Source of the DNA: Thetidibacter halocola
GTDB taxonomy: Bacteria; Pseudomonadota; Alphaproteobacteria; Rhodobacterales; Rhodobacteraceae
Reading direction: 5' to 3'
Length of the DNA stretch: 64,000 bases
Assembly (NCBI RefSeq): GCF_018224955.1
Contig: NZ_JAGTUU010000003.1
Coordinates: 434,001 to 498,000 of the forward strand
Position numbers and translations under genes: made by a program. Of the stretch, positions 8,408 through 28,592 are shown in pieces; within the stretch, counting starts at the first letter, position 1, and each line of letters opens with the position of its first letter. The notes under the pieces are model-generated. The model made no database searches, had not been told where the DNA came from, and saw only the letters and a program-made list of their open reading frames with translations.

Positions 8408-8483
<76 letters not shown>

Positions 8484-9759: not shown

Positions 9760-9859
9760 TCGGAGCATCCTTCGGTTGGAGCGGGCAACGTGACGGGCCG
9801 CCCCGACGGCGGCCCTGCCGGAAGGTGGTGCGGGGGCGGTGCCGTGCCCCGGCCTGCGG

Positions 9860-12438: not shown

Positions 12439-12487
12439 GGACATGTCTCCTGAACGGGATCGAGAGGGGCGGCGCGCGGTGGCCGCC

Positions 12488-14482
12488 TCAGAGGATGCGG
12501 CCGGTGGCCGAGCGCAACGCCGGGATCAGATCGCCCAGCAGCGATTGCGGCCACGGAACGTGAAGGATCGTCTGGAACAGCAGGAACAACGCCACCACGA
12601 AGGGCACGACGATCAGCACGGCGCGCTTCGGGCGGGTTTCCCCCTCGAACACCATGTAGGCCAGCGCAAAGACCGTGATCGCGGGCAGCATCCCCACCAG
12701 CTTGACCGCTACGACAAGGCTGGTCAGCCACGCGACCTGTACCAGGATCGCGCGCAGCGGTTGCTCGTAATCCGCGGCGGGCAGGGGGATCTTGCCCATC
12801 AGGCGGAACACCGTGTAGGCGCCGGCAAAGAACAGTCCCGCATAGGCGATGCTTTGCGGCAGCATCCGCGCCGACAGCTCCCACCCGGCAGAGGACAGCA
12901 GCACGTAGACGAACAGCGAGACGACCCCGGCCCAGACCGCGATATCGCCGTAGAAGCCGCGATTGCGCGGGTGATAGACCCGGCCCATCGCGGCCTTGCC
13001 GCCCGCCGAGCGCCCGACAAAGCGCGTCACCAGCGGCGTCAGCAGCATCAGCGCCATGATGCACAGCAGCACCAGCGGCACCGGCCGCAGCATCCACTCC
13101 GCTCCGTAGCGCAGGTGTGAGATGAACAGGTAGTTCTCGATCAGCCCGCCCAGCACGAAGGCCAGGATCAGCGGCGGGCGCGGCCAGCCGAGGCGCTTCA
13201 TCACGATGCCGATCACGCCGAACACGAACAGCACGATCAGGTCGGCATAATCCTTGGAGCCCTGGTAGGCGCCGACGATCATGATGCCCAGCACCAGCGG
13301 CACGAGGAACCCGGCCCGGATGGTGGCAAGACGGGCAAAGTAGCCCGCCAGCAGCAGGCAGGTGCCGGCGCCCAGGATGTTGGCCAGCGCCACCGTCCAG
13401 ATCAGGGTAAAGGTCACGTCCAGCTGGCTGCCCAGCATGTTCGGTCCCGGCGCGATGCCGTGGATCAGGAAAGCGCCGAGCAGGATCGCCATCGAGGCGG
13501 AACCGGGCACGCCGAAGACAAGGGTGGGCACCAGCGCGCCGCCTTCCTTGGCGTTGTTTGCGCTTTCAGAGGCGATGACGCCGCGCACGTCGCCCTTGCC
13601 GAAGGTCTCGTGCGAATTCTTGATGCTGCGCGAGGCATAGCCGTAGGCGATCCAGTCGATCACGTTGGCGCCGATGCCGGGCACGGCGCCCAGGAACGTG
13701 CCGATCGAGGCGCAGCGCAGCACCAGCCACCAGTTCCTGACCACGTCCATCGCGCCCTTGATCTGCTGCCAGGGGTCGGCCTTTGCGTCGCTTTGCGAAA
13801 TCGCCTTCTTCGAGGCGCCAAGGTCGATCATCTCGGGGATCGCGAACAGGCCCAGCGCCACCGCGACCAGCGACAGCCCGTCCCACAGGTAGAAGCTGTC
13901 GAAGGTCCAGCGCAGCGTGCCGGTTTGCGATTCGTCGCCGATGGTCGCCAGCAGCAGACCCAGCGAGGCCGCGACGAGGCCCTTGAACAGCGCGCCGTGG
14001 CTGAGGGTCACGATCAGTGTCAGGCCAAGCAGGCAGATGGCCAGCAGTTCGGGCGTGCCCACCGCCAGCACGAAGGGCCGCAGGATCGGAATCGCCAGTG
14101 CCAGTGCCAAGGCGCCAAAGAGCCCGCCGATAACCGAGGCGGTGAAGGCCGCGCCATAGGCCCGGCCGGCCTCGCCCTTCTTGGCCATCGGGTGCCCGTC
14201 GAGCACCGTCGCGGCCGAACCCACTGTCCCCGGAACGCCGAACAGGACCGCCGGAATGGTGTCCGATGTGGTGGTTACCGCCTGCACCCCGACCAGGAAG
14301 GCCAGCGCGGTATACGGGTCCATCGCGAAGGTGAATGGCAAAAGCAGCGATAGGCCGACGAGGCCGCCGATGCCGGGAATCACGCCGATCAGAAGCCCCA
14401 GAAAGGTCCCGATGGCGACGAATAGAAGGCGCGTTGGATCTCCGATGATGACCAAGGCGTCCAGTGCGGCATCCCAAACCAC
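12488..14482 (-). CDS. tripartite tricarboxylate transporter, fused TctA-TctB
   Basis: The membrane component of a TTT (Tct) solute carrier. The first ~500 residues are TctA: many hydrophobic helices with LIGVIPGIGGLVG, TSDTIPAVLFGVPGT and the second half-repeat AVPGIGANVIDWIAYG plus TLVFGVPGSASMA. The last ~150 residues (from about YHPRNRGFYGDIAVW) form four membrane helices like TctB, which is normally a separate gene. The start is GTG at 14480-14482 with GGGAGGAG upstream. The periplasmic binding subunit TctC is divergent at 14683, with the shared operator region between them. TTT systems import di-, tricarboxylates or aromatic acids such as terephthalate. The fusion means all three subunits are accounted for. 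Confidence 0.92.
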   Translation of the reverse strand: MVWDAALDALVIIGDPTRLLFVAIGTFLGLLIGVIPGIGGLVGLSLLLPFTFAMDPYTALAFLVGVQAVTTTSDTIPAVLFGVPGTVGSAATVLDGHPMAKKGEAGRAYGAAFTASVIGGLFGALALALAIPILRPFVLAVGTPELLAICLLGLTLIVTLSHGALFKGLVAASLGLLLATIGDESQTGTLRWTFDSFYLWDGLSLVAVALGLFAIPEMIDLGASKKAISQSDAKADPWQQIKGAMDVVRNWWLVLRCASIGTFLGAVPGIGANVIDWIAYGYASRSIKNSHETFGKGDVRGVIASESANNAKEGGALVPTLVFGVPGSASMAILLGAFLIHGIAPGPNMLGSQLDVTFTLIWTVALANILGAGTCLLLAGYFARLATIRAGFLVPLVLGIMIVGAYQGSKDYADLIVLFVFGVIGIVMKRLGWPRPPLILAFVLGGLIENYLFISHLRYGAEWMLRPVPLVLLCIMALMLLTPLVTRFVGRSAGGKAAMGRVYHPRNRGFYGDIAVWAGVVSLFVYVLLSSAGWELSARMLPQSIAYAGLFFAGAYTVFRLMGKIPLPAADYEQPLRAILVQVAWLTSLVVAVKLVGMLPAITVFALAYMVFEGETRPKRAVLIVVPFVVALFLLFQTILHVPWPQSLLGDLIPALRSATGRIL

Positions 14483-14524: not shown

Positions 14525-14569
14525 CAATCAAATCTGATTGCATACTGATATATTGTATGACAGTATAAC
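14525..14569. promoter_or_regulatory. operator candidate A in the tctA/tctC divergent region
   Basis: TTGTATGACAGTATAAC (14553-14569) differs at only two of 17 positions from the start of the motif at 28505 (TTGTATAACAGTATGAC). It is preceded by a perfect palindrome CAATCA-AATC-TGATTG (14525-14540), and ATACTG (14543-14548) pairs with CAGTAT (14561-14566). The position between two divergent transporter genes fits a regulator-binding site. Inferred regulator: the GntR protein at 18700. Confidence 0.6.
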
Positions 14570-14682
14570 GCTAATTCGGGAGTGCGTGCCACCTGTCATC
14601 AGACCAGCGGCGCGTTTCTCGGGTCTAGCGGGCGCCGGGCCAGGGCGCGGGGCTGCCCGTCAAATCCAGGGAGGAGGAAGAA

Positions 14683-15741
14683 ATGAACCTTATTCGGTCT
14701 GTCAGGCATGGACTTGCGGTGGCCTCGGTTGCGGCCACCATGTCGCTTGCCGGCGCCGCGGCTCATGCCGACGCCATCGAGGATCTTTATGCCGGCGAAA
14801 CGATGACCATCGTCATCGGCCATCCGCCGGGCGGGTCCTATGACCTTTATGCACAACTGGCGGCGGCTCACCTGGGCAAGTTCATCCCGGGCCAGCCCAA
14901 CGTGATCGTCCAGCACATGCCGGGCGGCGGCGGGCGCAAGGGCGCGGCCTTCTTCATCAACAACACCGATCCCGACGGCAAGACAGTCGCGATCCTGCCC
15001 GACACGCTGGGCCATACCGAGCTGCTGGACCCGTCGCGCGCCGACTGGAAATCGGCCGAATTCCGCTATATCGGCCGCTTCGCCCCGGCAAACGCCGCCT
15101 TTGTCGTGCGCAAGGACGCGCCGGCGACCACCATCGAGGAGATGAAGGAAAAGGAGATCATCGTCGCCTGCACCGGCAAGGGGTCGCGCAGCGGCCAGCA
15201 GCCGACCGCCATCGCCAACATGGCGGGTCTCAAGCTGAAGGTGATCTGTGGCTATCAAGGGTCGGCGCCGGCCAAGCTGGCGACCCTGCGCGGCGAGACG
15301 GACATGACGTCGGAGAACTGGGCCGCGCTGGCGCAGGATACGACTGATCTCGACAACGGTGACCTCAAGGTGGTGTTCCAGGCCGGTCTGGTCCGCGACC
15401 CGGACCTGCCCGACGTTCCGCTGCTCTTTGAACTGACCGACGATCCCGATGCCAAGGCAGTCCTGCGGTTCATCTCGGCCGGTGCTCCGGTCGGGCGGTC
15501 GATCATGGTGCATCCGGGCACGTCCGAGGACATCATCGCCGCGCTGCGCACCGCCTTCCAGGCCATGCTGGCGGATCCCGATTTCATCGCCGACGCCAAG
15601 CAGCGCGGCGCGATCATCGATCCGGAAACCGGTGAATACGTCGAGAGCGTCATGCAGGAGATCATGGCGGCCAGCCCCGACTTGATCGCCGCGGCCATGG
15701 CGGCGATGGACGACTCTGCCGCCACCGAAGTCGCGCAGTAA
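14683..15741 (+). CDS. TTT transporter periplasmic substrate-binding protein (TctC/Bug family)
   Basis: A 352-residue extracytoplasmic solute receptor. Residues 1-30 form a Sec signal peptide (basic RSVRHG, hydrophobic core ASVAATMSLAGAAAHA, cleavage near AHADA). The mature part has the Bug-type features GHPPGGSYDLYAQLAAAHLGKF, VQHMPGGGGRKGA and a C-terminal lobe with PGTSEDIIAALR. It should capture the carboxylate for the TctA-TctB fusion encoded divergently. The ribosome site GGGAGGAGGAAG lies directly upstream of the ATG. A strong hairpin at 15762-15789 separates it from ubiD and probably lowers downstream expression relative to this abundant periplasmic protein. Confidence 0.93.
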   Translation: MNLIRSVRHGLAVASVAATMSLAGAAAHADAIEDLYAGETMTIVIGHPPGGSYDLYAQLAAAHLGKFIPGQPNVIVQHMPGGGGRKGAAFFINNTDPDGKTVAILPDTLGHTELLDPSRADWKSAEFRYIGRFAPANAAFVVRKDAPATTIEEMKEKEIIVACTGKGSRSGQQPTAIANMAGLKLKVICGYQGSAPAKLATLRGETDMTSENWAALAQDTTDLDNGDLKVVFQAGLVRDPDLPDVPLLFELTDDPDAKAVLRFISAGAPVGRSIMVHPGTSEDIIAALRTAFQAMLADPDFIADAKQRGAIIDPETGEYVESVMQEIMAASPDLIAAAMAAMDDSAATEVAQ

Positions 15742-15761
15742 CCCACGCGACATGAGCGATG

Positions 15762-15795
15762 GAAGCCGCGCGAGAGGTTGCGCGGCTTCTTTCTT
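15762..15795 (+). terminator. terminator/attenuator between tctC and the UbiD gene
   Basis: GAAGCCGCGC (15762-15771) pairs perfectly over 10 bp with GCGCGGCTTC (15780-15789) around an 8-base loop, followed by TTTCTT. This is a good intrinsic terminator or mRNA-stabilising hairpin between two co-oriented genes. Confidence 0.75.
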
Positions 15796-15850
15796 GCCGA
15801 CCCCCTGAAAAGCCGCCAGACCTGAACGACCCCATCCGGAGATCCGATCC

Positions 15851-17494
15851 ATGGCCCACAACCGCGACACCAACGCCCCGGGCGACCTGCAGGAGCATCT
15901 TGCCCGACTCGAAGAGCGCGGCCTGCTGACCCGCATCCAGCGCGCCATCGACAAGGACAGCGAATTGCATCCGCTGATGCGCTGGCAGTTCCAGGGCGGC
16001 CTGCCGGAAGAGGATCGCCGCGCCTTCCTGTTCACCGACGTTCACGACGCCAAAGGCCGGGCCTATGACATCCCGGTGACCGTTGGCGCGCTGGCGGCCT
16101 CGCCGGCGATCTACGCGGCGGGCCTGGGCGTCGAGGTCTCCGACATTGGCGATGTCTGGGTGCGGGCAATGGAAAAGCCCATCAAGGCCGAGGAGGTCGC
16201 CTCGGGCGCCTGCCAGGAGATCGTCCTCACGGGTGAGGACCTGACGCGGCCCGGCGGCGGCATGGCGGCGCTGCCGGTGCCGGTCTCGACCCCCGGGTTC
16301 GACGCGGCGCCCTACCTGACCGCGACGCTGGTGGTGACGAAGGACCCGGAAAATGGCGTGCAGAACATGGGCACCTATCGCGGCATGCTCAAGGCACAGG
16401 ACCGTTTGGGCGTGCGCATGGCCAGCCGCCTTGGCGGTGCGGGCGGCTACCTGCACTGGCTGAAATACAAGGAGCGCGGCGAAAAGATGCCGGTGGCCAT
16501 TGTCGTCGGCTGCGCGCCGGCGGTGCTGTTCACCGGCCCGCAGAAACTGGCCATCGACGTCGATGAACTGGACGTGGCTGGCGGGCTGATCGGGCGGCCG
16601 GTGCAAACCGTGCGTTGCAAGACGGTGGACCTGATGGTGCCCGCCGACGCCGAGATCGTGATCGAAGGCGAGATCGCCACCGATTACCTCGAGCCCGAGG
16701 GGCCGTTCGGCGAAAGCCACGGGCACGTCGCGCTGGAAGACTTCAACATGTCGATGAAGGTCACGGCCATCACGATGCGGAAGAAGCCCGTATTCATCTC
16801 GATCGTCAGCCAGGTCACGCCCAGCGAAAGTTCCGTGCTGAAGAAGGTGGCCTACGAGCCGCTGTTCTTCAACCATCTGAAGAAGGTGCTGAACGTGAAG
16901 GGGATCAAGCGGGTTGTCATGCACGAGCCCTTGACGAACATCCGCAAGGTGATCTTCCTGCAATTCGACCGCAGCGCGCCGCAGACCGAGGTCTGGCGCG
17001 GGTTGCAGGGCGCGGCATCCTTGCAGGCGCAATGCGGCAAGGTGGTGATCGCGGTTTCGGACGACATCGACCCGAACAACGCCGACGCGATCTTCTGGTC
17101 AATCGCCTACCGGTCGAACATCACGACCGACGTGCATGTGACGCCCTATCGCTCGGGCGGGCACGGGCCGAAATCGGGGGGCAAGACCGCCGACGGTACG
17201 CTGATGATCGACGCGACGCTGAAGGGGAACATGCCGCCGCTGGCGCTGCCCGCCGAACGCTACATGACCCGGGCGAAGGAGATATGGGAGGAATTGCAGC
17301 TGCCCCGGATCACCCCGCAATCGCCCTGGCACGGCTATGAACTGGGCGACTGGGACGGGCTTTGGACGAGTTTCGCCGACCGCGCGGTCGCCGGCGACTG
17401 GGAAGAGAACGGGCGCCAGACCGAAACGCGCCAGCGCGGCGGGATGAAGCCCGAGACGCCTGCGCGCGACATCGAACGCGAGGGTTCGCGCTAG
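15851..17494 (+). CDS. UbiD-family (de)carboxylase
   Basis: A prenylated-FMN-dependent decarboxylase of 547 residues acting on aromatic, heteroaromatic or alpha,beta-unsaturated acids. The catalytic R-E-E triad is visible as Arg177 (MGTYRGML), Glu283 and Glu288 (EPEGPFGESHGH). Other family segments are DLTRPGGGMAALPVP, the FTGPQKLAIDVDELDVAGGL region and TPSESSVLKK. The cofactor would be made by the UbiX homologue at 19390. The location beside a carboxylate transporter and GntR regulator, and far from ubiquinone genes, argues for a catabolic enzyme rather than ubiquinone synthesis. CGGAG precedes the ATG. The substrate is not predictable with confidence. Confidence 0.93.
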   Translation: MAHNRDTNAPGDLQEHLARLEERGLLTRIQRAIDKDSELHPLMRWQFQGGLPEEDRRAFLFTDVHDAKGRAYDIPVTVGALAASPAIYAAGLGVEVSDIGDVWVRAMEKPIKAEEVASGACQEIVLTGEDLTRPGGGMAALPVPVSTPGFDAAPYLTATLVVTKDPENGVQNMGTYRGMLKAQDRLGVRMASRLGGAGGYLHWLKYKERGEKMPVAIVVGCAPAVLFTGPQKLAIDVDELDVAGGLIGRPVQTVRCKTVDLMVPADAEIVIEGEIATDYLEPEGPFGESHGHVALEDFNMSMKVTAITMRKKPVFISIVSQVTPSESSVLKKVAYEPLFFNHLKKVLNVKGIKRVVMHEPLTNIRKVIFLQFDRSAPQTEVWRGLQGAASLQAQCGKVVIAVSDDIDPNNADAIFWSIAYRSNITTDVHVTPYRSGGHGPKSGGKTADGTLMIDATLKGNMPPLALPAERYMTRAKEIWEELQLPRITPQSPWHGYELGDWDGLWTSFADRAVAGDWEENGRQTETRQRGGMKPETPARDIEREGSR

Positions 17495-17535
17495 ATGCCG
17501 GTCCGGCGGCAGGCGCCGGGCAGAAGGGCCCGGCC

Positions 17536-18621
17536 GTGAGGCCCGGCGGTGGCGGCATCGCGCGGGTGGACTGGCCCGTTCTGCGCCGGGTTCTTCTGGC
17601 GCTGGCTCTGGGCCTGGCGGGTGGGCTGCTGTTCGAATGGCTCAGGGCGCCTCTGCCCTGGATGCTGGGGCCGATGGTCTTCAACACGCTTGCCGCGGTT
17701 CTGCGCCTTCCGGTCCGCGGGCCTGTCCTGTTGCGGCCCTACGTCGTCGTCGTGATCGGGGTGATGCTGGGCGCGGGATTCACGCCCGAGCTTTTCTCGC
17801 AGGTCGGGGCCTGGGCCGTTTCGCTGGCCTTTCTCGCCGTCTACCTGGTCGTCTCGGGCCTGATCGTGGTGCCGTATTATCGCCACGTCGCCGGGTTCGA
17901 CAAGGTGACGGCCTATTTCTCGGGTATGCCGGGCGGATTGAACGAGATGGTTGTGCTCGGCCGCGACGCGGGCGGGGATGACGGCCGGATCGCGCTGGCC
18001 CACGCGGCGCGGATCGTGATCGTGGTCTCGCTGGTCGCGGTCTGGTTCCGGCTGATCGCGGGCTACGACCTGGGCGACCGGTCGCAGTTCGGGAAATCCT
18101 TTGCGGTGATCCCGTGGCTGGACCTGGGGGTGCTGGCGGGCTGCGGCGTCCTCGGCTTCTTCCTGGGGCGGTTGCTGCGCCTGCCGGCGCCGACGCTGAT
18201 CGGCCCGATGATCCTGAGCGCCATCGCCCACCTGACCGGGCTCAGCCAGAACCCGCCGCCGAGCGAGATCGTCACCGTCGCGCAGCTGTTCCTCGGCACC
18301 ATAATCGGCTGCCGCTTTGTCGGGGCGGGCGCGGGCGCGATCGGCCGCGCGCTGCTGGTCAGCCTTGGCGGGACCCTGATCATGCTGACCATCACCGTCC
18401 TGTTCGCGGTTGTCCTGCATGGTGCGTTCGGCCAGCCCACGGAACAGGTCCTGCTGGCCTATTCGCCCGGCGGCCTGGCCGAGATGAGCCTTGTCGCCCT
18501 CGCGATGGATGCCGAGGTCGCCTATGTGGCGATTCACCACGTGATCCGTATCACCTTGGTCGTGCTTTTCGCGCCAGTGGTGTTCAGGATGATGCGCAAC
18601 CGATCCGACGACGCGGAATGA
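17536..18621 (+). CDS. AbrB-family membrane protein (putative transporter/regulator)
   Basis: About 361 residues, nearly all membrane helices, in two homologous halves as expected for the AbrB (PF05145) family, often mislabelled ammonia monooxygenase. Repeated motifs are LPWMLGPM and SGMPGGLNEMV in the first half, and APTLIGPMIL and SPGGLAEMSLVAL in the second. I use GTG at 17536 because AGAAGGG lies upstream; the frame is open across the preceding gene's end. The gap to the UbiD gene is only 41 bp, so co-transcription is likely. The physiological substrate of this family is poorly defined; here it may move the pathway substrate or product. Confidence 0.82.
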   Translation: MRPGGGGIARVDWPVLRRVLLALALGLAGGLLFEWLRAPLPWMLGPMVFNTLAAVLRLPVRGPVLLRPYVVVVIGVMLGAGFTPELFSQVGAWAVSLAFLAVYLVVSGLIVVPYYRHVAGFDKVTAYFSGMPGGLNEMVVLGRDAGGDDGRIALAHAARIVIVVSLVAVWFRLIAGYDLGDRSQFGKSFAVIPWLDLGVLAGCGVLGFFLGRLLRLPAPTLIGPMILSAIAHLTGLSQNPPPSEIVTVAQLFLGTIIGCRFVGAGAGAIGRALLVSLGGTLIMLTITVLFAVVLHGAFGQPTEQVLLAYSPGGLAEMSLVALAMDAEVAYVAIHHVIRITLVVLFAPVVFRMMRNRSDDAE

Positions 18622-18622
18622 C

Positions 18623-18631
18623 GTATGACAA
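18623..18631. promoter_or_regulatory. operator half-site B upstream of gntR
   Basis: GTATGACAA, identical over nine bases to the right half of the motifs at 22338 (reverse strand) and 28505, lies just after the AbrB-family stop and 69 bp before the GntR start. The left half is not conserved, so this may be a weaker autoregulatory half-site. Confidence 0.45.
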
Positions 18632-18699
18632 TACCATGCCGGGCCTTTCTATGGACCTCCTGGGCCGCTATACATATGCCGATATGACGGAGTGATAGT

Positions 18700-19380
18700 A
18701 TGCAGGATTTTAACTCCGGGGGGCTGACCCCGATCCGCCAGGAGGTCGCGCCTCTCAGGACCCGCATCATCGAGTCGATGCGCCGCGCCATCGAACGCGG
18801 CTTTCTGAAACCGGGCGAAAGACTGGTCGAAAAGGATCTGTGCGAGCAACTCGGCGTCAGCCGCACGTCGCTGCGCGAGGCGCTGCGCGAGCTCGAGGCC
18901 GAGGGTGTCATCGCGCAGGCCCCGGCGCGCGGGCTGGTCGTGGCCAAGATCTCGCGGCGGGACGCCGAGAACATCTACCTGATCCGCGGCGACGTCGAGG
19001 CGCTGATCATCGGCCAGTTCATCAATCTGGCCAGCGACGCCCAGATCGCCGAGGCGCTGGAGAACTGCGACACGCTGATCGACGCCTACAAGCAGGGCGA
19101 ATTCGCCGACATCGTCGAGGCCAAGCGCGCCTTCTATGCCCATATCTGCGAGGTGGCGGGGAACGGCGTGGCCATGGATCTGTTGTCGCGCCTGACTTTG
19201 CGGACCGCGCAGTTGCGCAGTCATTCCGTCGTGCGCAAGGAACGCCAGGCCCAGAGCGTGCAGGAAATCCACGCCCTTGCCGAGGCGATCCGCGCGCGCG
19301 ACAGCGACGCGGCGCGCCACGCGGCCAAGACCCATGTCGAGAACGCCGCGCGGTCCGCGCTGGCCTATGCCGAACCCTGA
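18700..19380 (+). CDS. GntR-family transcriptional regulator (FCD/FadR subfamily)
   Basis: A 226-residue regulator. The N-terminal winged helix (about residues 20-85) has RAIERGFLKPGERLVEKDLCEQ, LGVSRTSLREALRELEAEG. The C-terminal alpha-helical FCD ligand domain (about 95-220) keeps metal/ligand-type residues in RGDVEALIIGQF, FYAHICEVAGN and IHALAEAIRARDSDAARHAAKTH. GGAG with 7-base spacing supports the ATG. It sits in the centre of the locus, and the repeated TTGT...ACAA motif in four intergenic regions resembles the TNGTNNNACNA core of FadR-type operators. It is therefore the best candidate regulator, probably derepressed by an acidic pathway intermediate. Confidence 0.92.
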   Translation: MQDFNSGGLTPIRQEVAPLRTRIIESMRRAIERGFLKPGERLVEKDLCEQLGVSRTSLREALRELEAEGVIAQAPARGLVVAKISRRDAENIYLIRGDVEALIIGQFINLASDAQIAEALENCDTLIDAYKQGEFADIVEAKRAFYAHICEVAGNGVAMDLLSRLTLRTAQLRSHSVVRKERQAQSVQEIHALAEAIRARDSDAARHAAKTHVENAARSALAYAEP

Positions 19381-19389
19381 CCGGCCCGC

Positions 19390-19965
19390 TCAGCCGTCGT
19401 CGCCGTCGTCCTTCCAGCGGTGCACATGCGGCAGGTGGATCCCGACCAGGTCCAGCGCCCGGCCGACGGACTGGTTGATGATGTCGTCGATCGTCTTGGG
19501 CTTGCTGTAGAAACCCGGCACCGGCGGCATGATGATCGCGCCGTTCCGCGTAGCCTGGTCCATCAGGGCGATGTGCCCGGCGTGAAACGGCGTCTCGCGC
19601 AACATCAGCACGACGCGGCGGCGTTCTTTCAGGCAGACATCTGCGGCGCGCACGATCAGGTCGGAATCGTAGCAATGGGCGATGCCGCTCAGCGTCTTGA
19701 CCGAGCAGGGCATGACCAGCATCCCCTCTGTGCGGAACGACCCCGAGGCGATGGACGCGCCGATGTCGCGGTGGTTGTGGACGTGGTCGCAAAGGCTGCG
19801 GATTTCGTCCGCGCCCATGTCGACCTCGGTCTGCGCGGTCAGCAGGGCCGAGGGCGAGATGATCGCGTGCGTCTCGACGTCCGGAACGTCGCGCAGCATC
19901 TCCAGCGCGCGGATCCCGTAGATGGTGCCCGACGCTCCTGTCAGGCCGATGATGATCCGGCGCAT
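19390..19965 (-). CDS. ubiX: UbiX-family flavin prenyltransferase
   Basis: Makes prenylated FMN from FMN and dimethylallyl phosphate, the cofactor of UbiD enzymes. The 191 residues show IIIGLTGASGTIYGIRALE (FMN phosphate loop), the ISPSALLTAQTE region, MPCSVKTLSGIAHCYDSDLIVRAADVCLKERRR (prenyl-phosphate and FMN contacts) and the C-terminal VGRALDLVGI. GGAG lies 9 bases before the ATG. It is 41 bp downstream of the molybdenum hydroxylase large-subunit gene on the same strand, so the two form a short operon. Genomic pairing with the UbiD gene 2 kb away supports a dedicated catabolic function. Confidence 0.93.
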   Translation of the reverse strand: MRRIIIGLTGASGTIYGIRALEMLRDVPDVETHAIISPSALLTAQTEVDMGADEIRSLCDHVHNHRDIGASIASGSFRTEGMLVMPCSVKTLSGIAHCYDSDLIVRAADVCLKERRRVVLMLRETPFHAGHIALMDQATRNGAIIMPPVPGFYSKPKTIDDIINQSVGRALDLVGIHLPHVHRWKDDGDDG

Positions 19966-20006
19966 TCCGCTTTCTCCGTTGGGTCCTGCCCTTGTGGTGC
20001 AGGGTG

Positions 20007-22295
20007 TCAGTTTCCTTTGGCGGCCTGCAAGGCCTGCCAGACGCGATCCGGGGTGGCCGGCATGTCGAGGTGCCGGACCCCTTCACAGGCAAGCGCATCG
20101 TTGACCGCGCTCATGCAGGCGGACAGCGCGCCGACCGTTCCCGCCTCTCCGACGCCCTTGACGCCGAGGGGATTGGCCCGGGTCGGGAACGGCAGGCTTT
20201 CGACCGCCAGAAATGGCAGATCCGCGGCCCGGGGCAAGGCATAGTCCATCAGCGTCGCGGTCAGCATCTGGCCCGTCTCGGCGTCATAGGTGATCCGTTC
20301 CATGAACGCCTGGCCCAGTCCCTGCGCCACGCCGCCCGCGATCTGGCCCTTGACCAGCATCGGGTTCAGGACGGTGCCGACATCGTCGACCACGACATAG
20401 GATTGCAGCGCGACGGCGCCGGTCTCGGGGTCGATCTCGACCTCGCAGACATGGCAGCCGTTGGGAAAGGTCGCGCCCTCGGGACCGTCGAACACCTCGG
20501 CGATGACCGGGGTGCCGCGTTCCGTCAGGACGGTGGACAGGGGCAGGGCGCGGTCGGTGCCGTCGACCCGGAAGACCCCGTTGGCAAAGACGACATCCTG
20601 CGCCGCCGCTTCCAGCATCTCGGCCGCTTGCGGGGCAAGCTCTGCGATGGCCTTGTCGACCGAAACGCGGATCGCCGCGCCGGCGCTGCACAGGGTGCGC
20701 GATCCGAAGGTGCCGGTGCCGCGCGCCACGGCGCGGCTGTCGCCCGTCACGATGCTCACCGGGCCGGTCTCCGGCCCCAGGCACTGGGCCAGGATCTGGC
20801 GATAGGCGGTTGCGTGACCCTGGCCGGAATCGGATGACCCGGCGCGCAACTCGACGCCTTCGGGGGACAGCGCGATGCGGGCGTATTCCGGGTGCGGCTT
20901 TCCGGCCGGGCCGCCCGCGATCTCGATGGGAAAGGCGATGCCGAGGCCGCGCAACAGCCCCTTCGCGGCGCTGGCCGATCGCCTTTCGCCGAAGGATCGC
21001 CAGTCTGCAAGGTCCAGCGCGCGGTCCAGCACGGCGGGAAAGTCGCCGCTGTCATAGGCAAAGAGAAAGCCGGTGTCATAGGGCATCGCCCTCGCCGGGA
21101 TCAGGTTGCGGCGGCGCAATTCTGCGCGGTCGATGCCCAGTTCGGCCGCAGCGATGTCGATCATCCTCTCGACGATATAGGTGGCCTCTGGCCGCCCCGC
21201 GCCGCGATAGGGGGCGGTGTATTGGGTGTTGGTGAAATAGCCGTCGACCGAGGCGTGGATCGCGGGAATCCGGTAGACGCCGGACAGGCCGCCCAGGTTG
21301 GCGACCGGCGGATGGGTCGTCGCGGGTCCCAGCCGCGCGCCCAGGGCTGCGGCGATCCGGACGTCGAGCGCAAGGAACCGCCCCTCGGCATCCAGCGCGA
21401 GGGTTGCATCGGCGACGCTTTCGCGGGCCTGCGAATCCGACAGGAAAGATTCCAGCCGCGTCGCCGTCCAGACAACCGTCTTGCCGGGCAGTTGCTGCGC
21501 CGCCCAAAGCGCCAGCGCCTGTTCCTGGTAGCCTGCGTTCTTCATACCGAAGGACCCGCCGCAATCGGGCGAGACCACGTGGATCCGGTCGGCCGTCGCA
21601 CCGATCAGCGGCGCGAGGTCCATGGCGACCCGGTGCGGCGCCTGCGTGCCCGAATCCAGCCGCCACGATTGCAACCCTTCGTCGAACGTGGCGCGCAGGG
21701 CCCGAGGCTCCAGCGCGACGGCGGTCACACGCGAGATGTCCAGCCGCTGCCGCACGACATGCGCCGCGCCCTGTATGGCCTGCGCGACCGCCCCTGCATC
21801 GCCCCGGTCGACGTGAAAGCAGCGATTGTCAGGGAACTGGTCCCAGACACGCCGGTCATTGGCCTCGGCCTGGGCCAGGCCGATCACCGGCGCGACCGGG
21901 TCGATGTCCAGCACGATCGCCTCCAGCGCGTCCTGCGCGGCCTGCGGCGTTTCGGCCAGCACCAGCGCCACCGGATCGCCGACATAGGCCACGCCCTCGC
22001 GCGCCAGAAGCGGAAAGGGCGGCACACGCATCGCGCCGCCATCCGGCCCGGGATGGGAGAGGCGGGGGGTTATTTCTCTTGTGTCTTCAAGGTCATGAGC
22101 GGTCGATACCAGCAGGACGCCCGGCACTGTCCGCGCGGCTGAGACGTCCAGCGCCACGATGCGCCCGGCCGCTTCGGGTGAGCGAAAGAGGGCCATGTGC
22201 ACGGGATCGTCGGCGGCGATGTCATTCGTATAGTGACCCTCACCGCGCAGGAGGGGAGCGTCCTCGGCGCGCGAAACCGGATGTCCGATCGTCAT
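20007..22295 (-). CDS. molybdenum hydroxylase large subunit 1 (xanthine dehydrogenase/CoxL family)
   Basis: About 762 residues of the molybdopterin-cytosine/molybdopterin-binding subunit of a xanthine-oxidase-family hydroxylase, which inserts an oxygen from water into aldehydes or N-heterocycles. Visible are the N-terminal ald_Xan_dh domain (SRAEDAPLLRGEGHYTND), the AFRGAGRPE-type loop PYRGAGRPEATYIVER, SDSGQGHATAYRQIL, and the catalytic glutamate in GVKGVGEAGTVG. The ATG at 22293-22295 has AGAGGT upstream. It is divergent from a second large-subunit gene at 22402. The two paralogues differ in the active-site loop, so they may have different substrates while sharing one FeS and one FAD subunit. 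Confidence 0.92.
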   Translation of the reverse strand: MTIGHPVSRAEDAPLLRGEGHYTNDIAADDPVHMALFRSPEAAGRIVALDVSAARTVPGVLLVSTAHDLEDTREITPRLSHPGPDGGAMRVPPFPLLAREGVAYVGDPVALVLAETPQAAQDALEAIVLDIDPVAPVIGLAQAEANDRRVWDQFPDNRCFHVDRGDAGAVAQAIQGAAHVVRQRLDISRVTAVALEPRALRATFDEGLQSWRLDSGTQAPHRVAMDLAPLIGATADRIHVVSPDCGGSFGMKNAGYQEQALALWAAQQLPGKTVVWTATRLESFLSDSQARESVADATLALDAEGRFLALDVRIAAALGARLGPATTHPPVANLGGLSGVYRIPAIHASVDGYFTNTQYTAPYRGAGRPEATYIVERMIDIAAAELGIDRAELRRRNLIPARAMPYDTGFLFAYDSGDFPAVLDRALDLADWRSFGERRSASAAKGLLRGLGIAFPIEIAGGPAGKPHPEYARIALSPEGVELRAGSSDSGQGHATAYRQILAQCLGPETGPVSIVTGDSRAVARGTGTFGSRTLCSAGAAIRVSVDKAIAELAPQAAEMLEAAAQDVVFANGVFRVDGTDRALPLSTVLTERGTPVIAEVFDGPEGATFPNGCHVCEVEIDPETGAVALQSYVVVDDVGTVLNPMLVKGQIAGGVAQGLGQAFMERITYDAETGQMLTATLMDYALPRAADLPFLAVESLPFPTRANPLGVKGVGEAGTVGALSACMSAVNDALACEGVRHLDMPATPDRVWQALQAAKGN

Positions 22296-22337
22296 GCTGA
22301 CCTCTTGCAGGGCACGGTTTTTTGCTTGTTAGTATTA

Positions 22338-22356
22338 TTGTCATACATTATAACAA
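22338..22356. promoter_or_regulatory. operator candidate C between the two molybdenum-hydroxylase large-subunit genes
   Basis: TTGTCATACATTATAACAA (22338-22356) has the form TTGT-N11-ACAA over 19 bp. On the reverse strand its right half GTATGACAA is identical to the right half of the site at 28505-28523. It is centred between two divergent genes 107 bp apart. I infer binding by the locus GntR regulator. Confidence 0.65.
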
Positions 22357-22401
22357 CACACAAGCGGATGTCGCAGGCAATTATGCGACGCGCAGGAATG
22401 G

Positions 22402-24852
22402 TTGGGGGCACCCGTGACTCGAGCAAAAACCAGCGCAGTGCGGAAGGCGTCCGATTCCGCGCCGGACATCGCCTGGCGGTGGGACGATGCGCCCCCCGAC
22501 ATGGATTACGTCCGCGAGGCGCTGTTCCGGCATATCGGCAAGCCCGTTGCCCGCAAGGAGGACAAGCGGCTGCTGACTGGCAAGGGCCGGTTCACCGATG
22601 ACTTCAACCTGCCGGGGCAGACCTATGCGGCGATGGTGCGCTCGCCGCATCCGCATGCGCGCATCCTGGGCATCGACGCCTCGGCGGCCCTCGCGGCCCC
22701 CGGTGTCCTTGCGGTGCTGACCGGCGTGGACGTGCTGGCCGACGGCCTGGGTCCGATCCCGCACAACCCGTTGCCCAAGACGAATTTCGACATGAAACTG
22801 TCGGCACCCGGTGGCGGCGCGCCCTTCATCGGCCCGCACCTGCTGCTGCCGGCCGACAAGGTGCGTCACGTGGGCGAGGCGGTGGCGGTGGTCGTCGCGG
22901 AAAGCGCCGCGCAGGCAATGGATGCGGCCGAACTGGTCGACGTCGATTACGAGGAACTCGATTTCGTCATCGACGCGCTCGACGCGGCCTCGGGATCGTG
23001 CCCCTCCGTGGTCTGGGACGAGGTGCCCGACAATGTCTTTGTCGAGACGCATTTCGGCGACCGGGAGGCGACCGACGCGGCCTTTGCCCGCGCCGCGCAT
23101 GTGGTCGAGGCCTCGTTTCACATCGACCGCGTCACCGGCGTCCCGATGGAGCCGCGCGCAGCCCTTGCCGCCTTTGACGCCGAGAGCGGGAAATACACGC
23201 TTTACGCCGGCAGCGGTGGCGCGGTGCGGCAAAAGAACGAACTGGCCGAAGTCCTTGGCATCGAACCGAAATCGCTGCGCGTCCTGTCCTTCGACGTGGG
23301 CGGGAATTTCGGTACGCGCAACCGGACCTACGTGGAATTCGGCCTGACCCTCTGGGCGTCGCGCCGGGTCGGCAGGCCGGTGAAATACACCGCCACCCGG
23401 TCCGAGGCCTTCCTGACCGATTACCAGGGCCGCGACCTGCACACGACGGTGGCGCTGGCGATGGATGCCGAGGGGCGCTTCCTGGCGATGCGGGCGGACA
23501 ATCTCAGCAATGTGGGCGCGCGCTGTGTCTCGTTGTCGCCGCTCAGCAAGGGGTCGGGTCTGATCACCGGCTCGTACGACATTCCGGCCGCCACGCTGCG
23601 CTCGCGCGCGGTCTTTACCAACACCATGTGCACCCAGGCCTATCGCAGTTCGGGCCGGCCCGAAGTCACCTATGCCATAGAACGCCTGGTGGAAATTGCC
23701 GCCAAACAGATCGGCATGGACCCGATCGAGCTGCGCCGCCGCAACATGATCGCGCCCGACCGGATGCCCTATCGCAACGCGGTCGGCCAGGTCTACGACA
23801 GCGGCACCTACGAGACGAACATGGACCAGGCGATGGCCCTGTTCGACTGGGACGGTTTTGCCGCCCGCCGCGAAGAGGCGACGGCGCGGGGGATGCTGCT
23901 GGGGCGGGGCCTTGCGAATTACGTCGAAAGCTCCATCGGCTCGCCCAGGGAGAGGGCCGAGATCACGGTGCTGCCAGATGGCCGGATCGAGGTCGTCATC
24001 GGCACCCAGCCCAGCGGTCAGGGGCACGAGACGAGTTTCGCGCAGGTCGTGGCCGACATGCTGGGCGTGCCGGTCGAGACGGTGACGATCATCATCGGCG
24101 ATACGGATGTGGTGTCGGTGGGCGGAGGGTCGCATTCCGGCCGCTCGATGCGGCATGCGGGCACGGTCATGGCGATGGCCTCGTCCGAGTTGCTGGCCGA
24201 GGCGCGCCGGCGCGCGGCCGAGCATTTCGACGTGGCCCTCGACCGGATCGAACGCGACGGCGACCAGTATCGCGTCGCGGGGACGAACCACACGGTCGGC
24301 CTGTTCGAACTGGCCGCGCTGCCGTCCGGGCCGCTGGCGGTTGCCCGCACCAACGAGATGCACACGCCGGTTTTTCCGAACGGCACCGCGATCTGTGAGG
24401 TCGAGATCGACCCGGAACTTTGCCATGTCGAGATCACGCGATACGCCACCATCGATGACGTGGGACGCTGCATCAATCCGATGATCGTCCACGGCCAGAC
24501 CCATGGCGGCATCGCGCAGGGCGTGGGCCAGGCGATGTGGGAACTCTGCGTCACCGATCCGGACTCGGGCCAGCCGCTGGCCGGCTCCTTCATGGATTAC
24601 GGCATGCCGCGCGCGGACAACCTGCCCTCTTTCGACGCTGAAATCGCCGAGGTGATTTCGCCCACCAATCCGCTGGGTATCAAGGCGGGCGGAGAAGGGG
24701 GAACGACTCCGGCACTGGCGACCGTAACGCTCGCCGTTCTGGACGCATTGGCGCCGCTGGGCGTCACCGACATCAAGATGCCACTCACGCCGAACACGAT
24801 CTGGCGCGCCATTGGGGAGGCGCGCCAGCAAGAAAAAGGAGTCATGGAATGA
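22402..24852 (+). CDS. molybdenum hydroxylase large subunit 2 (xanthine dehydrogenase/CoxL family)
   Basis: About 816 residues, the second molybdenum-cofactor-binding subunit at this locus. It shows KPVARKEDKRLLTGKGRFTD, SFDVGGNFGTRNRTY, AYRSSGRPEVTYAIERL in place of the usual YRGAGRPE loop, TQPSGQGHETSFAQV and the catalytic glutamate in KAGGEGGTTPA. The start is uncertain: TTG at 22402 has AGGA upstream, GTG at 22414 follows GGGG, and ATG at 22501 begins just before the conserved region. The stop overlaps the next start as ATGA (24849-24852). It leads the operon of an NMT1-like protein, FeS subunit and FAD subunit, so it is the paralogue most tightly linked to the electron-transfer subunits. 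Confidence 0.9.
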   Translation: MGAPVTRAKTSAVRKASDSAPDIAWRWDDAPPDMDYVREALFRHIGKPVARKEDKRLLTGKGRFTDDFNLPGQTYAAMVRSPHPHARILGIDASAALAAPGVLAVLTGVDVLADGLGPIPHNPLPKTNFDMKLSAPGGGAPFIGPHLLLPADKVRHVGEAVAVVVAESAAQAMDAAELVDVDYEELDFVIDALDAASGSCPSVVWDEVPDNVFVETHFGDREATDAAFARAAHVVEASFHIDRVTGVPMEPRAALAAFDAESGKYTLYAGSGGAVRQKNELAEVLGIEPKSLRVLSFDVGGNFGTRNRTYVEFGLTLWASRRVGRPVKYTATRSEAFLTDYQGRDLHTTVALAMDAEGRFLAMRADNLSNVGARCVSLSPLSKGSGLITGSYDIPAATLRSRAVFTNTMCTQAYRSSGRPEVTYAIERLVEIAAKQIGMDPIELRRRNMIAPDRMPYRNAVGQVYDSGTYETNMDQAMALFDWDGFAARREEATARGMLLGRGLANYVESSIGSPRERAEITVLPDGRIEVVIGTQPSGQGHETSFAQVVADMLGVPVETVTIIIGDTDVVSVGGGSHSGRSMRHAGTVMAMASSELLAEARRRAAEHFDVALDRIERDGDQYRVAGTNHTVGLFELAALPSGPLAVARTNEMHTPVFPNGTAICEVEIDPELCHVEITRYATIDDVGRCINPMIVHGQTHGGIAQGVGQAMWELCVTDPDSGQPLAGSFMDYGMPRADNLPSFDAEIAEVISPTNPLGIKAGGEGGTTPALATVTLAVLDALAPLGVTDIKMPLTPNTIWRAIGEARQQEKGVME

Positions 24853-25781
24853 CAGAACCGGTTCGCGTCATCGCCTTTCCGGGCGCACCGAACTTGCCGA
24901 CCTTCGCCGCCATCGAGCAGGGATTCTTCGCGGCGGAAGGGCTGGATGTCTCTGTCGAGCTGACGCCGAGTTCCGTCTACCAGGCGGAACGGACGGCGGC
25001 GGGCGACTTCGACATCGTCTTTACCGCCTTCGACAATGTCGTGGCCTATGGCGAGGGGCAGGGGGCGGCGGGCGACGGGGTCGATCCCGGCTATGTCGTG
25101 ATCGCAGGCGCGACGCAGCTGGAGCTCAGCCTTGTCGTGGCGGCCGACATAAAGACGCATGCCGATCTCGCGGGCCGCAGCATCGCGCTGGACGCGCTGA
25201 CCACGGGCTTTGCCTTTGTCTTGTTCGACATGCTGGAACAGGCGGGGATCAGCCCGGATGACGTGACTTTCGAGGCCGTGGGCGCCACGCCGCAACGCTG
25301 GCAGGCGGTGAAGGCCGGTGAAAGCGACGGCACGCTGACGATCGAGCCCTTCACCTCGATCGCCGAGCGGCTGGGGTTCACGGTGCTGGACCGCTCGACC
25401 CGGATCTACGACGCCTACCAGGGCGGCGTTGTCGCCACCCGCCGCAGCTTTGCCGAGGCGCGGCCCGAGACGGTCACGGCCTTCCTGCGGGCCTACCTGA
25501 AGGGGTTGAACTGGGTGCTGGACCCAGCCAACCGCGAGGCGGGACAGGCGCTGCTGCTGGAAAAGATGACGGCGATCCAGCCTCAGGCAGCCCCGGCGGT
25601 GATGAAAAGCCTGCTGTCGCCGGCTTCGGGCCTGACGCCCGGCGCCGACATCCTGCCCGACGGCATGAAACAGGTTCTGGCGTTGCGCAGCCGCTACGGA
25701 TCGGGGGGATCGCCGCTCGACGATCACGAGAAGTATCTCGACCTGTCCTTCCTCGACGCCGCGCGCGCCGGTCTCGGCTGA
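24849..25781 (+). CDS. NMT1/SsuA-type binding-protein-fold protein without signal peptide
   Basis: 310 residues with the NMT1/THI5-like fold: VRVIAFPGAPNLPTFAAIEQGFFAAEGLDVSVEL, the domain-1 segment DFDIVFTAFDNVVAYGEG, LAGRSIALDALTTGFAF and the C-terminal helix region VTAFLRAYLKGLNWVLDP. There is no signal peptide, although most family members are exported ABC receptors, and no ABC permease or ATPase is present. Its ATG overlaps the preceding stop (ATGA), and the FeS subunit follows within 14 bp, so it is embedded in the hydroxylase operon. It may be a cytosolic ligand carrier, sensor or enzyme acting on the pathway compound, or it may be exported by an unrecognised route. Confidence 0.82.
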   Translation: MTEPVRVIAFPGAPNLPTFAAIEQGFFAAEGLDVSVELTPSSVYQAERTAAGDFDIVFTAFDNVVAYGEGQGAAGDGVDPGYVVIAGATQLELSLVVAADIKTHADLAGRSIALDALTTGFAFVLFDMLEQAGISPDDVTFEAVGATPQRWQAVKAGESDGTLTIEPFTSIAERLGFTVLDRSTRIYDAYQGGVVATRRSFAEARPETVTAFLRAYLKGLNWVLDPANREAGQALLLEKMTAIQPQAAPAVMKSLLSPASGLTPGADILPDGMKQVLALRSRYGSGGSPLDDHEKYLDLSFLDAARAGLG

Positions 25782-25795
25782 CGGTGGGGATCGCC

Positions 25796-26296
25796 ATGCA
25801 AGACGTCACCCTGACCGTAAACGGCAAGACCGAAACGCGCCGCGTCGAGGGCCGCACCCTGCTGGTGCAGTTCCTGCGAGAGCATCTTGGCCTGACCGGT
25901 ACCCACGTTGGCTGCGACACCAGCCAGTGCGGCGCCTGCACCGTGATCCTGGGCGGCAGGGCGGTGAAATCCTGCACCATCCTCGCCAGCGCCGCCGCGG
26001 CACGTGGCGAGGTGCTGACCATCGAGGGGCTGGGTGACGAAGAGGCGTTGAGCCCGATGCAGGAGGCCTTTCACCGCCACCACGCCCTGCAATGCGGTTT
26101 CTGCACGCCGGGCATGGTCATGGCGGCGCACAACATGGTGCAGCGTCACGAAGGCGAGCTGACCGAGGCCATCGTGCGCCGCGAACTCGAGGGCAACCTG
26201 TGCCGTTGCACCGGCTATCACAACATCGTCAAGGCCGTGCTGGCGGCGGCAGAGGCGCATCGGGCGGTGGCATCCGCGCCCGCGGGACAGGACTGA
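25796..26296 (+). CDS. molybdenum hydroxylase 2Fe-2S subunit (CoxS/XdhA-FeS type)
   Basis: 166 residues carrying both iron-sulfur clusters of the hydroxylase. The plant-type ferredoxin cluster is [16 protein letters not shown] with its fourth cysteine in KSCTIL; the second cluster uses CGFCTPGM and CRCTGYHNI. The ATG at 25796 follows GGTGGGGA with suitable spacing; an in-frame GTG at 25784 is an alternative. It passes electrons from the molybdenum centre to the FAD subunit encoded 4 bp downstream. All cluster ligands are intact. Confidence 0.95.
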
Positions 26297-26300
26297 GCCG

Positions 26301-27113
26301 ATGTATGCGTTCGACTACCACCGCGCCCGCAGCCTCGAAGAGGCACTGAAACTGTTCGCAACCCTGGACGAGGCGACGTTCCTTGCCGGCGGGCACACCC
26401 TGTTGCCCACGATGAAGAACCGCCTGGCTGCGCCGGAAAACCTGATCGACATCAGCGCCTTGCCGGAACTGTCGGGTATCGGGATGCAGGGCGGCGTGTT
26501 GCGGATCGGTGCGGCCATGACGCATCACGCGGTCGCGGCGTCTTCGCTGGTGGCAGAGACCATCCCGGCCCTCGCGGCGCTGGCGGGGTCCATCGGCGAC
26601 GTGCAGGTGCGCCACGTGGGCACGATGGGCGGATCGGTGGCGAACAACGACCCGGCGGCGGATTACCCGGCGGCGGTCTTGTCGCTGGGCGCCGAGATCG
26701 AGACCGACCGGCGCCGCATTCCGGCAGACGACTTCTTTCAGGGACTCTACGCCACCGCGCTGGAGGAAGGCGAACTGATCGTCGCTATACGCTTTCCCGT
26801 GCCTGAAACGGCGGGTTACGGCAAATACCGCAATCCTGCGTCCCGCTATGCGTTGGCGGCATCCTTTGTCAGCATTCGGGACGGGGCGGTTCGCGTCGCT
26901 GTCACCGGGGCTGGAAAGAACGGCGTGTTCCGTTGGGAGGCCGCCGAACAGGCGCTGATGGGTCATTGTTCAGCCTCGCGCATCGCCGACCTGCGGCCGG
27001 AGAGCGACGCGCTCTTGTCCGACATGCATGCCGATGCCGCGTTCCGGGCGAACCTCGTCAACGTGGTCACGCGGCGCGCGGCCGAGCACCTGGGCGGGGC
27101 GTCCATCGTCTGA
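26301..27113 (+). CDS. molybdenum hydroxylase FAD-binding subunit (CoxM type)
   Basis: 270 residues. The FAD pyrophosphate motif appears as [19 protein letters not shown], followed by [19 protein letters not shown] and the second FAD contact [23 protein letters not shown] CoxM-type C-terminal domain follows from about residue 175. The gene starts 4 bp after the FeS subunit and ends the operon, converging on the DAHP synthase gene only 13 bp away. Together with one of the two large subunits it should complete an LMS-type heterotrimer (or its dimer). Confidence 0.94.
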
Positions 27114-27126
27114 CCCCGCCCGGCCG

Positions 27127-28488
27127 TCAGACCGTCCGGGCCTGCCTGCTCTGCATCAGTTCATCAGCAACAAGAAACGCCATTTCCAGCGCCTGGCTGG
27201 CATTCAGCCGTGGGTCGCAGGCTGTGTGATAGCGGTCCGACAGGTCCTCGTCCGCGATCGGACTGACCATGCCACCGGTGCATTCGGTGACGTTCTGGCC
27301 GGTCATTTCCAGGTGGACTCCCCCCGCGATGGTGCCCTCGGCGCGATGGATGGCGAAGAAGTCGCGCACCTCGCTCAGGATCAGGTCGAAGGGCCGAGTC
27401 TTGTAGCCCGACGACGCCTTGAGCGTGTTGCCGTGCATCGGGTCGCATGACCAGACCACCGTCGCGCCAACCTGTTCGACGGCCCGGATCAGGGGTGGCA
27501 GTTTCTCGGCGACCTTGTCGGCGCCGAACCGTGCGATCAGGGTCAGCCGGCCGGGGATGTTGTCCGGGTTGAGCGCCGCAATCAACTGCTTCAACTCGTC
27601 CGGCGTGGTGGTCGGGCCGCATTTCAGCCCGATGGGGTTCTGCACGCCAGAGGCGAAATCCACATGCGCCCCGTCCGGCTGGCGGGTCCGGTCGCCGATC
27701 CAGATCATGTGACCCGACCCGGCCAGCGGCTTGCCCGTGGTGCTGTCGATCCGGCACAGTGCCTCTTCGTATTCCAGCAGAAGGGCCTCGTGGCTGGTGT
27801 AGAAATCGACCGAATGCAGCGCGTGGATGCCACGGCTGTGCAGGCCCGTCGCGGCCATGAAATCCAGCGAATCCGTGATCTTGGCGGCCATTGCCTCGTA
27901 GGCGTCGACCTTGGATCGGTCGGTGAAATCCAGCGTCCAGGCATGCACCTGTGCAAGGTCCGCATAGCCGCCCTGGCTGAACGCGCGCAGCAGGTTCAGC
28001 GAGGCCGCGGCCTGGGTATAGGCCTGAAGGATGCGGTCGGGATCGGGTTGCCGTGCCTCGGGTGTGAAGTCGAAGCCGTTGATGATGTCGCCTTTGTAGC
28101 TGGGCAGCGTCACGCCATCGAGCGTTTCGGTCGGGGCCGAACGGGGCTTGGCGAACTGGCCGGCGATCCGCCCCACCTTCACCACCGGCATCTTGGCGGC
28201 ATAGGTCAGCACCAGCGCGCTTTGCAGCAGCAGCCGGAACGTGTCCCGCAGGTTATTCGCGGAAAACTCGGCGAAACTCTCGGCGCAATCGCCCCCCTGG
28301 AGGAGGAACGCCTCGCCCCGCGCCACCTGCGCCAGCTGGCTTTGCAGGCGCCGTGCCTCGCCGGCGAAGACCAGCGGAGGATACGCTGCAAGCTGGCGCT
28401 CGACGCGGTTCAGGTGGTCGATGTCCGGATAGTCGGGCATCTGGATGCGGGGCTTGTCTCTCCAGCGTGTCTTGGTCCAGGGGGCCAT
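27127..28488 (-). CDS. class II 3-deoxy-7-phosphoheptulonate (DAHP) synthase
   Basis: Condenses phosphoenolpyruvate and erythrose 4-phosphate in the first shikimate-pathway step. About 453 residues of the plant-type (class II) family: [19 protein letters not shown], the active-site [24 protein letters not shown], the DIINGFDF segment, [12 protein letters not shown] and [12 protein letters not shown] use the ATG at 28486-28488 (MAPWTKTRW) because GAGAG precedes it; the frame also has an ATG at 28501-28503 abutting the operator-like motif. Rhodobacteraceae often use a class II enzyme as the housekeeping DAHP synthase, so it may be general aro metabolism. The operator-like site D just upstream suggests co-regulation with the aromatic-acid locus. 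Confidence 0.93.
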
Positions 28489-28504
28489 TGTGCTCTCGCG
28501 CATT

Positions 28505-28523
28505 TTGTATAACAGTATGACAA
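28505..28523. promoter_or_regulatory. operator candidate D upstream of DAHP synthase
   Basis: TTGTATAACAGTATGACAA has TTGT and ACAA ends around 11 bases and an inner AC-A-GT. It matches site A at 15 of 17 positions and shares GTATGACAA with sites B and C. It lies 17 bases upstream of the chosen DAHP synthase start and 70 bases before the divergent TIGR02444 gene. Confidence 0.6.
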
Positions 28524-28592
28524 TGACTGCCTAGCAAACTCCGGCAGGGCCGTCACTAGCGAAACGCACCGGGAAACGATGGGGGCCGCAGG

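Follow-up and report, generated by a model that had tools for sequence, protein, structure and literature searches.

Which regulator controls a catabolic cluster that carries its own gntR gene, and how far might its control reach? The question is raised by a 64,000-nucleotide stretch of Thetidibacter halocola DNA (NCBI RefSeq assembly GCF_018224955.1, contig NZ_JAGTUU010000003.1, positions 434,001 to 498,000 of the forward strand), hereafter the window, in which genes for a UbiD-family decarboxylase, a UbiX-family flavin prenyltransferase, two molybdenum-hydroxylase large subunits (molA and molB) and a TctABC transporter lie around a gntR gene at 18700, with short repeated sites in the gaps. 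A preliminary description had taken these sites for a TTGT...ACAA operator defining a hidden regulon, had named the GntR protein as its likely owner, and had proposed motif scans of the whole genome and of orthologous loci. The best reading of our sequence analysis is a local FadR/VanR-type GntR regulon over the cluster, in which sites A, C, D and, weakly, B would be GntR operators, a dimer would hold the core and repress until a small acid binds, and control would be limited to one cluster; we give this reading a probability of roughly 0.85. The sites are as follows:

14547 to 14569, plus strand: putative operator A, in the divergent gap between tctAB and tctC
18615 to 18637, plus strand: weak candidate site B, overlapping the 3' part of abrB and lying 77 bp ahead of gntR, with an exact GTATGACA
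22332 to 22354, minus strand: putative operator C, the strongest, in the divergent gap between molA and molB
22347 to 22352, minus strand: promoter-like −10 hexamer TATAAT for molA, preceded by TG, overlapping operator C (from a consensus scan)
28499 to 28523, plus strand: putative operator D, between a 3-deoxy-D-arabino-heptulosonate 7-phosphate (DAHP) synthase gene and a TIGR02444 gene, with overlapping cores GTATAACA and GTATGACA 8 bp apart

The four sites occur at these positions beyond the level of chance. The word GTATGACA is present four times in the window against 0.29 copies expected, a count reached in none of 100 shuffles, and all four copies are sites A to D (A 14555+, B 18623+, C 22339−, D 28515+); the whole 4.84-Mb genome holds 52 copies, from which we calculated a probability of about 0.0008 for a chance copy per 78-bp gap. 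The sequences that the preliminary description gave for its four coordinates were all found there, and its 19-mer, allowing three mismatches, gave eight matches in the window (0.35 expected, 0/100 shuffles). As a whole-genome probe the same 19-mer with three mismatches was discarded as unspecific, with 81 matches compared with 64 for a reversed control; its only exact matches in the genome are sites C and D, and TTGTNATACA was located at eight genomic places, one of them in the window. A scoring matrix was built without the window sites, and each gap was compared with 1000 of its own dinucleotide shuffles. The best matches in gaps A, C and D were equalled by 0/1000 shuffles each, whereas none of the control gaps was outstanding, their scores being reached by 670 (tctC/ubiD), 122 (ubiX/molA) and 897 (after TIGR02444) of the 1000 shuffles, and the best score in the window outside sites A to D was 9.2, at 39275. 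Site B scored 13.9, the fourth in the window, with its start within the last abrB codons; the strict abrB–gntR gap reached only 1.5, a score attained by 34/1000 shuffles. In strength, A and C are strong, D is moderate and B is weak. The earlier claim of a shared repeat in the cluster gaps stands as to a real common operator-like element, of which B is a weak instance.

The conservation of the sites was assessed in 20 related loci, comprising ten on genome contigs (55–68% GntR identity), seven plasmid regions (50–57%) and three from genomes of the family, each cut about 10 kb to either side and all found through gntR. The loci derive from scattered Alphaproteobacteria and one betaproteobacterial bin, and ubiD was present in 19, molB in 16, ubiX in 16 and TIGR02444 in 14 of them, with LysR mapped in four (L079, L080, L081 and L084). 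The window and loci together contain 45 GTATGACA words, 30 of which, all from the loci, were aligned for a sequence-only model. Those kept out were four that fall within genes (a single one each in L075 and L081, two in L088), one overlapping word in L074, one in L071, five in L084 (mostly near copies of L080) and the four window sites. Applied to the 20 loci plus two controls, the model gave 43 matches at E ≤ 5, of which the 13 outside the training set are independent of the choice of GTATGACA, though five of L084 resemble trained L080 sites. A model match was found in 18 of the 20 loci, the exceptions being L073 (a 3.4-kb contig) and L083, and none in the control loci L102 (genome G259) and L103 (genome G072), so the scan of orthologous loci came out as the preliminary description would predict. 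These two controls carry a related cluster with the same gene set and UbiD at 57–59% identity but GntR at only 32–34%, so that loss of the operator accompanies a change of regulator; when their gaps were scanned for the cores common to GntR proteins, none was reported.

On the mapped stretches of 21 sequences, 40 of 44 GTATGACA words (one L074 place being counted twice) lie outside mapped genes, though genes fill 259,999 of the 301,376 bases. The sites were located in the tctAB/tctC, molA/molB or molB/ubiD gaps and, in some loci, before gntR, while in rhizobia they precede lysR, the hydrolase gene and tctC; the gap orthologous to that of site A carries a site in L068, L069, L070, L072, L077, L088, L089 and L090. 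Among 16 scanned gaps before gntR, which did not include L080 to L084, a score above 4 was obtained only in the window (13.9), L090 (16.7) and L079 (21.6), and the model also matched before gntR in L080, L081 and L084, giving a site ahead of gntR in L079, L080, L081, L084 and L090. The half-site B of the preliminary description is therefore a weak one, although the model matches in the other three loci speak for it.

The site set comprised 47 sites, 31 of them non-redundant, and per-position counts were taken from 46 sites (one L089 site being left out), again 31 non-redundant. GT-N3-AC is kept in 27/31 and TGTNNNACA in 23/31 of the non-redundant sites, whereas TTGT-N11-ACAA, the motif put forward in the preliminary description, and TNGTNNNACNA, its FadR-type core, are each kept in only three. 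The TTGT...ACAA layout is not common to all the window sites either: C fits D when read on the minus strand (TTGTTATAATGTATGACAA vs. TTGTATAACAGTATGACAA), and A ends in AACGC. By the alignment, the core is TGTATGACA within a roughly symmetric 23-bp element, GTAWTA-N-TGTATGACA-R-TAWTAC, from which operator C departs by one mismatch. The flank positions G −8, T −7, T −4, A −3, T +9, A +10, A +13 and C +14 are each kept in 19 to 26 of 31 sites, and the flanks, for which no selection was made, further share a TTG some 15 bp upstream of the core, GTATTAAT immediately in front of it, RTA behind it and a CAA roughly 18 bp past the core start. The core is invariant by construction in the training set, which was picked by GTATGACA, while the flanks and the window are independent of that choice. 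FadR-subfamily sites are described in PMC4494728 as palindromic and A/T-rich, with GT and AC 3 nt apart and weaker extra boxes 7–12 nt from the centre, a description that the form found here, a GT-N3-AC core with weaker flanking boxes, fits.

The model was run on 13 genomes or records, with 30 training sites and none from the window. In the T. halocola genome, three matches were obtained at E ≤ 1, namely C (22321–22364, E 2.1e-6), A (14537–14573, E 0.00116) and D (28491–28527, E 0.97; 0.013 for the window), and site B reached 7.8 bits (E 0.22 when only the window is searched). The regulon is confined to one locus, there being no other match at E ≤ 1 in this genome; the genome-wide scan, like that of the orthologous loci, speaks for the earlier proposal of a shared operator, but for a single-locus regulon. 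Six other genomes or records carry the regulator (five gave training sites, G149 none), and every match at E ≤ 0.1 in them lies at the cluster or on the cluster contig. Of the genomes lacking a close GntR ortholog, also six in number, half gave nothing at E ≤ 1, and the lowest E among the remaining three was 0.07. In a family scan of 394 genomes under stricter filters, five matched at E ≤ 0.005, and four of the five are exactly the four with this GntR at E ≤ 1e-50; six of these 394 have UbiD at E ≤ 1e-180, namely those four together with G072 and G259. When 385 genomes were drawn from the whole class, the only one with the GntR was the window's own. Given the co-occurrence and the type of core, the cluster GntR is the likely owner of the sites, and the ownership suggested earlier is favoured by the family scan, the ortholog loci and the GT-N3-AC core alike. 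The genes concerned are listed below:

9860 to 10666, minus strand: hydrolase resembling 3-oxoadipate enol-lactonase, recurrent in the cluster (TIGR02427 189.2 bits, below the cut-off of 255.85)
10681 to 12444, minus strand: thiamine diphosphate (ThDP)-dependent enzyme, recurrent in the cluster (TPP_enzyme domains; 70% to the L081 gene)
12488 to 14482, minus strand: fused TctA-TctB transporter (PF01970, PF07331)
14683 to 15741, plus strand: TctC substrate-binding protein (PF03401)
15851 to 17494, plus strand: UbiD-family decarboxylase (PF01977, PF20696)
17491 to 18621, plus strand: AbrB-family membrane protein, start uncertain (PF05145)
18700 to 19380, plus strand: GntR-FCD transcription regulator (PF00392, PF07729)
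19390 to 19965, minus strand: UbiX-family flavin prenyltransferase (NF004685 above cut-off)
20007 to 22295, minus strand: molA, CoxL-type molybdenum-hydroxylase large subunit (PF20256, PF02738, PF01315)
22402 to 24852, plus strand: molB, second CoxL-type large subunit (PF02738, PF20256, PF01315)
24849 to 25781, plus strand: NMT1/SsuA-like protein (PF13379)
25784 to 26296, plus strand: 2Fe-2S subunit (NF041020-like, below cut-off)
26301 to 27113, plus strand: flavin adenine dinucleotide (FAD) subunit (NF041019-like, below cut-off)
27127 to 28488, minus strand: second class II DAHP synthase (TIGR01358 above cut-off)
28593 to 29117, plus strand: TIGR02444/DUF2390 protein (TIGR02444 above cut-off)

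The regulator exceeds the cut-offs of PF00392 (58.1 bits) and PF07729 (74.2 bits), which assigns it GntR winged-helix and FCD domains. Its best NCBIfam match, TIGR03338 (phnR_burk), scores 92.1 bits, below the cut-off of 271.5. The structure model has a mean predicted local distance difference test score of 89.5, and the closest folds are McbR, a Brucella melitensis GntR protein, a Ralstonia protein, Atu1419, AlkR and PmiR. By eye, two of the histidine positions with which FCD proteins usually bind metal look replaced here (Y146, I190), whereas H212 is invariant; the GntR may thus be unable to bind metal. McbR/YncC of Escherichia coli controls different genes from those of the window cluster. 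It is the top sequence and fold match among solved structures (PDB 4p9f, E 4.2e-20, template modelling score 0.77), although with 25% identity in the fold alignment.

Another parallel is offered by Atu1419 of Agrobacterium fabrum, a member of the VanR group. Residues E44, R55, T56 and R59 are invariant in 11/11 aligned orthologs of the window GntR and, by our reading from a match made by eye, correspond to the DNA-contact residues E34, R45, T46 and R49 of Atu1419; PMC7797058 names contact residues for FadR too. According to the same source, Atu1419 resembles the predicted system in being an FCD repressor of an aromatic-acid degradation region, with a palindrome that sits on the −10 box or lies between it and the −35 box, and the fold match has E 3.4e-9. 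It differs in that its site is the exact 10-mer ATGTATACAT and its genes degrade hydroxycinnamic acids, and identity in the fold alignment is 24%. FadR-subfamily regulons, as surveyed in PMC4494728, likewise combine a GntR-FCD protein, a palindromic A/T-rich GT-N3-AC site, weaker extra boxes and divergent operons, but the published consensus has TKGT/ACMA boxes, whereas the putative window operator has the core TGTATGACA with an asymmetric centre. The element itself is well supported; the regulation would be of an ordinary, already known kind, and the predicted operator would be a new one of FadR type, set against the published subfamily consensus.

The element could also be read differently by the same protein, as 8-bp repeats in tandem (two or three copies of GTATNANN) occupied by several side-by-side dimers as in NanR, and not as one palindrome with helper boxes. 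E. coli NanR is, according to PMC8012715, a GntR-FCD repressor with a small local operon set, GTAT-containing units at short steps and three GGTATA repeats spaced below half a turn. In the direct register, with 16 bp between the flanks, matches reach 0.46 at zero slide (next best slide 0.37), the right flank agrees with the core at 8 bp by 0.51, and the two cores of site D, 8 bp apart, fit a tandem reading. The dyad register, however, likewise has its maximum without any slide (0.42, the next slide giving 0.33), and it accommodates the outer G (−8) and C (+14); as TAWTA is its own complement, the letters are unable to choose between direct and inverted. With the NanR equivalog model NF003011 the GntR scores 49.5 bits, short of the cut-off of 260. 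We regard the tandem arrangement as possible but rather unlikely, and retain the single palindrome with helper boxes as the working form of the operator.

It is improbable that the motif belongs to another regulator, such as the LysR found in rhizobial clusters or a regulator whose gene lies elsewhere: a site does stand ahead of lysR in L079, L080, L081 and L084, and the loci were chosen by gntR, but LysR was mapped in just these four of 20, the motif tracks gntR in the family scan, and the core has the GntR-type GT-N3-AC form. Even less can be said for a promoter element or a composition effect of AT-rich gaps, with no operator involved. The sites do lie within promoter gaps, their outer TTG and CAA triplets are possible −35 boxes, one promoter-like match falls at C, and the fifth genome of the family scan, G196, is AT-rich (37% GC); yet shuffles of their own gaps fall short of A, C and D every time and nothing else in the genome matches at E ≤ 1, making this explanation very improbable. 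Several observations nevertheless weigh against a GntR regulon at this cluster. Since the loci were picked via gntR, co-occurrence there is by choice, a bias that the family scan alone escapes, and in that scan G196 has no cluster protein in 18 kb around its match. Genomes G774 and G292 contain weak extra matches away from the cluster (E about 0.3–0.65), and the L078 site at 19060 has no mapped cluster gene nearby. The invariance of the core comes partly from selecting GTATGACA words, and two of the sites score weakly, D with E 0.97 and B with 7.8 bits. Promoter-like matches in the region number three versus 1.6 in shuffles, not above chance, and are therefore weak evidence.

Under the GntR regulon, we infer that a GntR dimer would hold the TGT-ATG-ACA core and that the weaker flanking boxes would strengthen binding or recruit further dimers. 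Putative operators A and C lie between diverging operons, and C, whose distances to the two start codons are 51 and 56 bp, covers the −10-like box of the molA promoter-like match (10/12, first hexamer at 22374), so repression of both directions is most likely; at C a dimer would block the molA and molB promoters together. Release would come from a small acid, either the transported substrate or an intermediate, on the FCD domain. As gntR follows tctC, ubiD and abrB on one strand, it may be expressed from the promoter at A, with B as a minor extra site. The predicted regulon would comprise uptake by TctABC, decarboxylation by UbiD/UbiX, the two molybdenum hydroxylases, the ThDP enzyme and the enol-lactonase-like hydrolase, both leftward of tctAB on the same strand, and TIGR02444. 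The cluster probably degrades an acid, itself probably aromatic; in the open-licence part of PubMed Central, no paper joining UbiD with GntR and the cluster enzymes was found, none of the papers listed describes the cluster, and those on TIGR02444 are unrelated to it. The papers listed for the letters of the motif show no link to this regulon either, a result that carries no weight. An uncharacterised regulator would thereby gain an exact, testable predicted operator, which would also mark the borders of an orphan catabolic pathway with all these components. The operator could also help to test for the pathway substrate.

Site D was assigned in the preliminary description to the DAHP synthase, whose place in the regulon is doubtful. 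This gene is a second copy, 71% identical to the one on contig C1, and it had no match in the 20 ortholog loci, while TIGR02444 occurs in 14 of them; the D core lies 86 bp from the TIGR02444 start and 19 bp from that of DAHP synthase, the latter being the shortest core-to-start distance among the gene starts compared (next 36; starts taken from matches). Taken together, these point to D most likely serving TIGR02444, and a site between TIGR02444 and tctC was also observed in L079, L080, L081 and L084. Site D may act on the DAHP synthase as well. In each of eight comparison genomes there is a single DAHP synthase match, located away from the cluster in the four cluster carriers, and relatives at E ≤ 1e-229 were detected in seven of 325 genomes, the own genome and six at 74%. 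The second DAHP synthase gene sits between the cluster FAD subunit and TIGR02444. A more elaborate arrangement, with cooperative side-by-side dimers on 8-bp steps acting in both directions of two divergent gaps and the second DAHP synthase drawn under the switch via D, appears unlikely; if true, the second enzyme would perhaps sustain aromatic amino acid synthesis while the substrate or its intermediates disturb the housekeeping enzyme.

In three related loci, ubiD looked damaged around 5500–9900: in L078 (R. jaguaris) and L083 (P. zundukense) the gene is split into separate parts, and in L082 (Phyllobacterium sp.) it is truncated. The gntR beside the broken ubiD looks intact in all three; L083 has no operator, and L082 has kept a strong one. 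The NMT1/SsuA-like protein (24849–25781, plus strand) is encoded within the molybdenum-hydroxylase operon and is found again in the ortholog loci, and no obvious signal peptide was seen at its start by eye; it may be an enzyme or chaperone instead of a transporter part.

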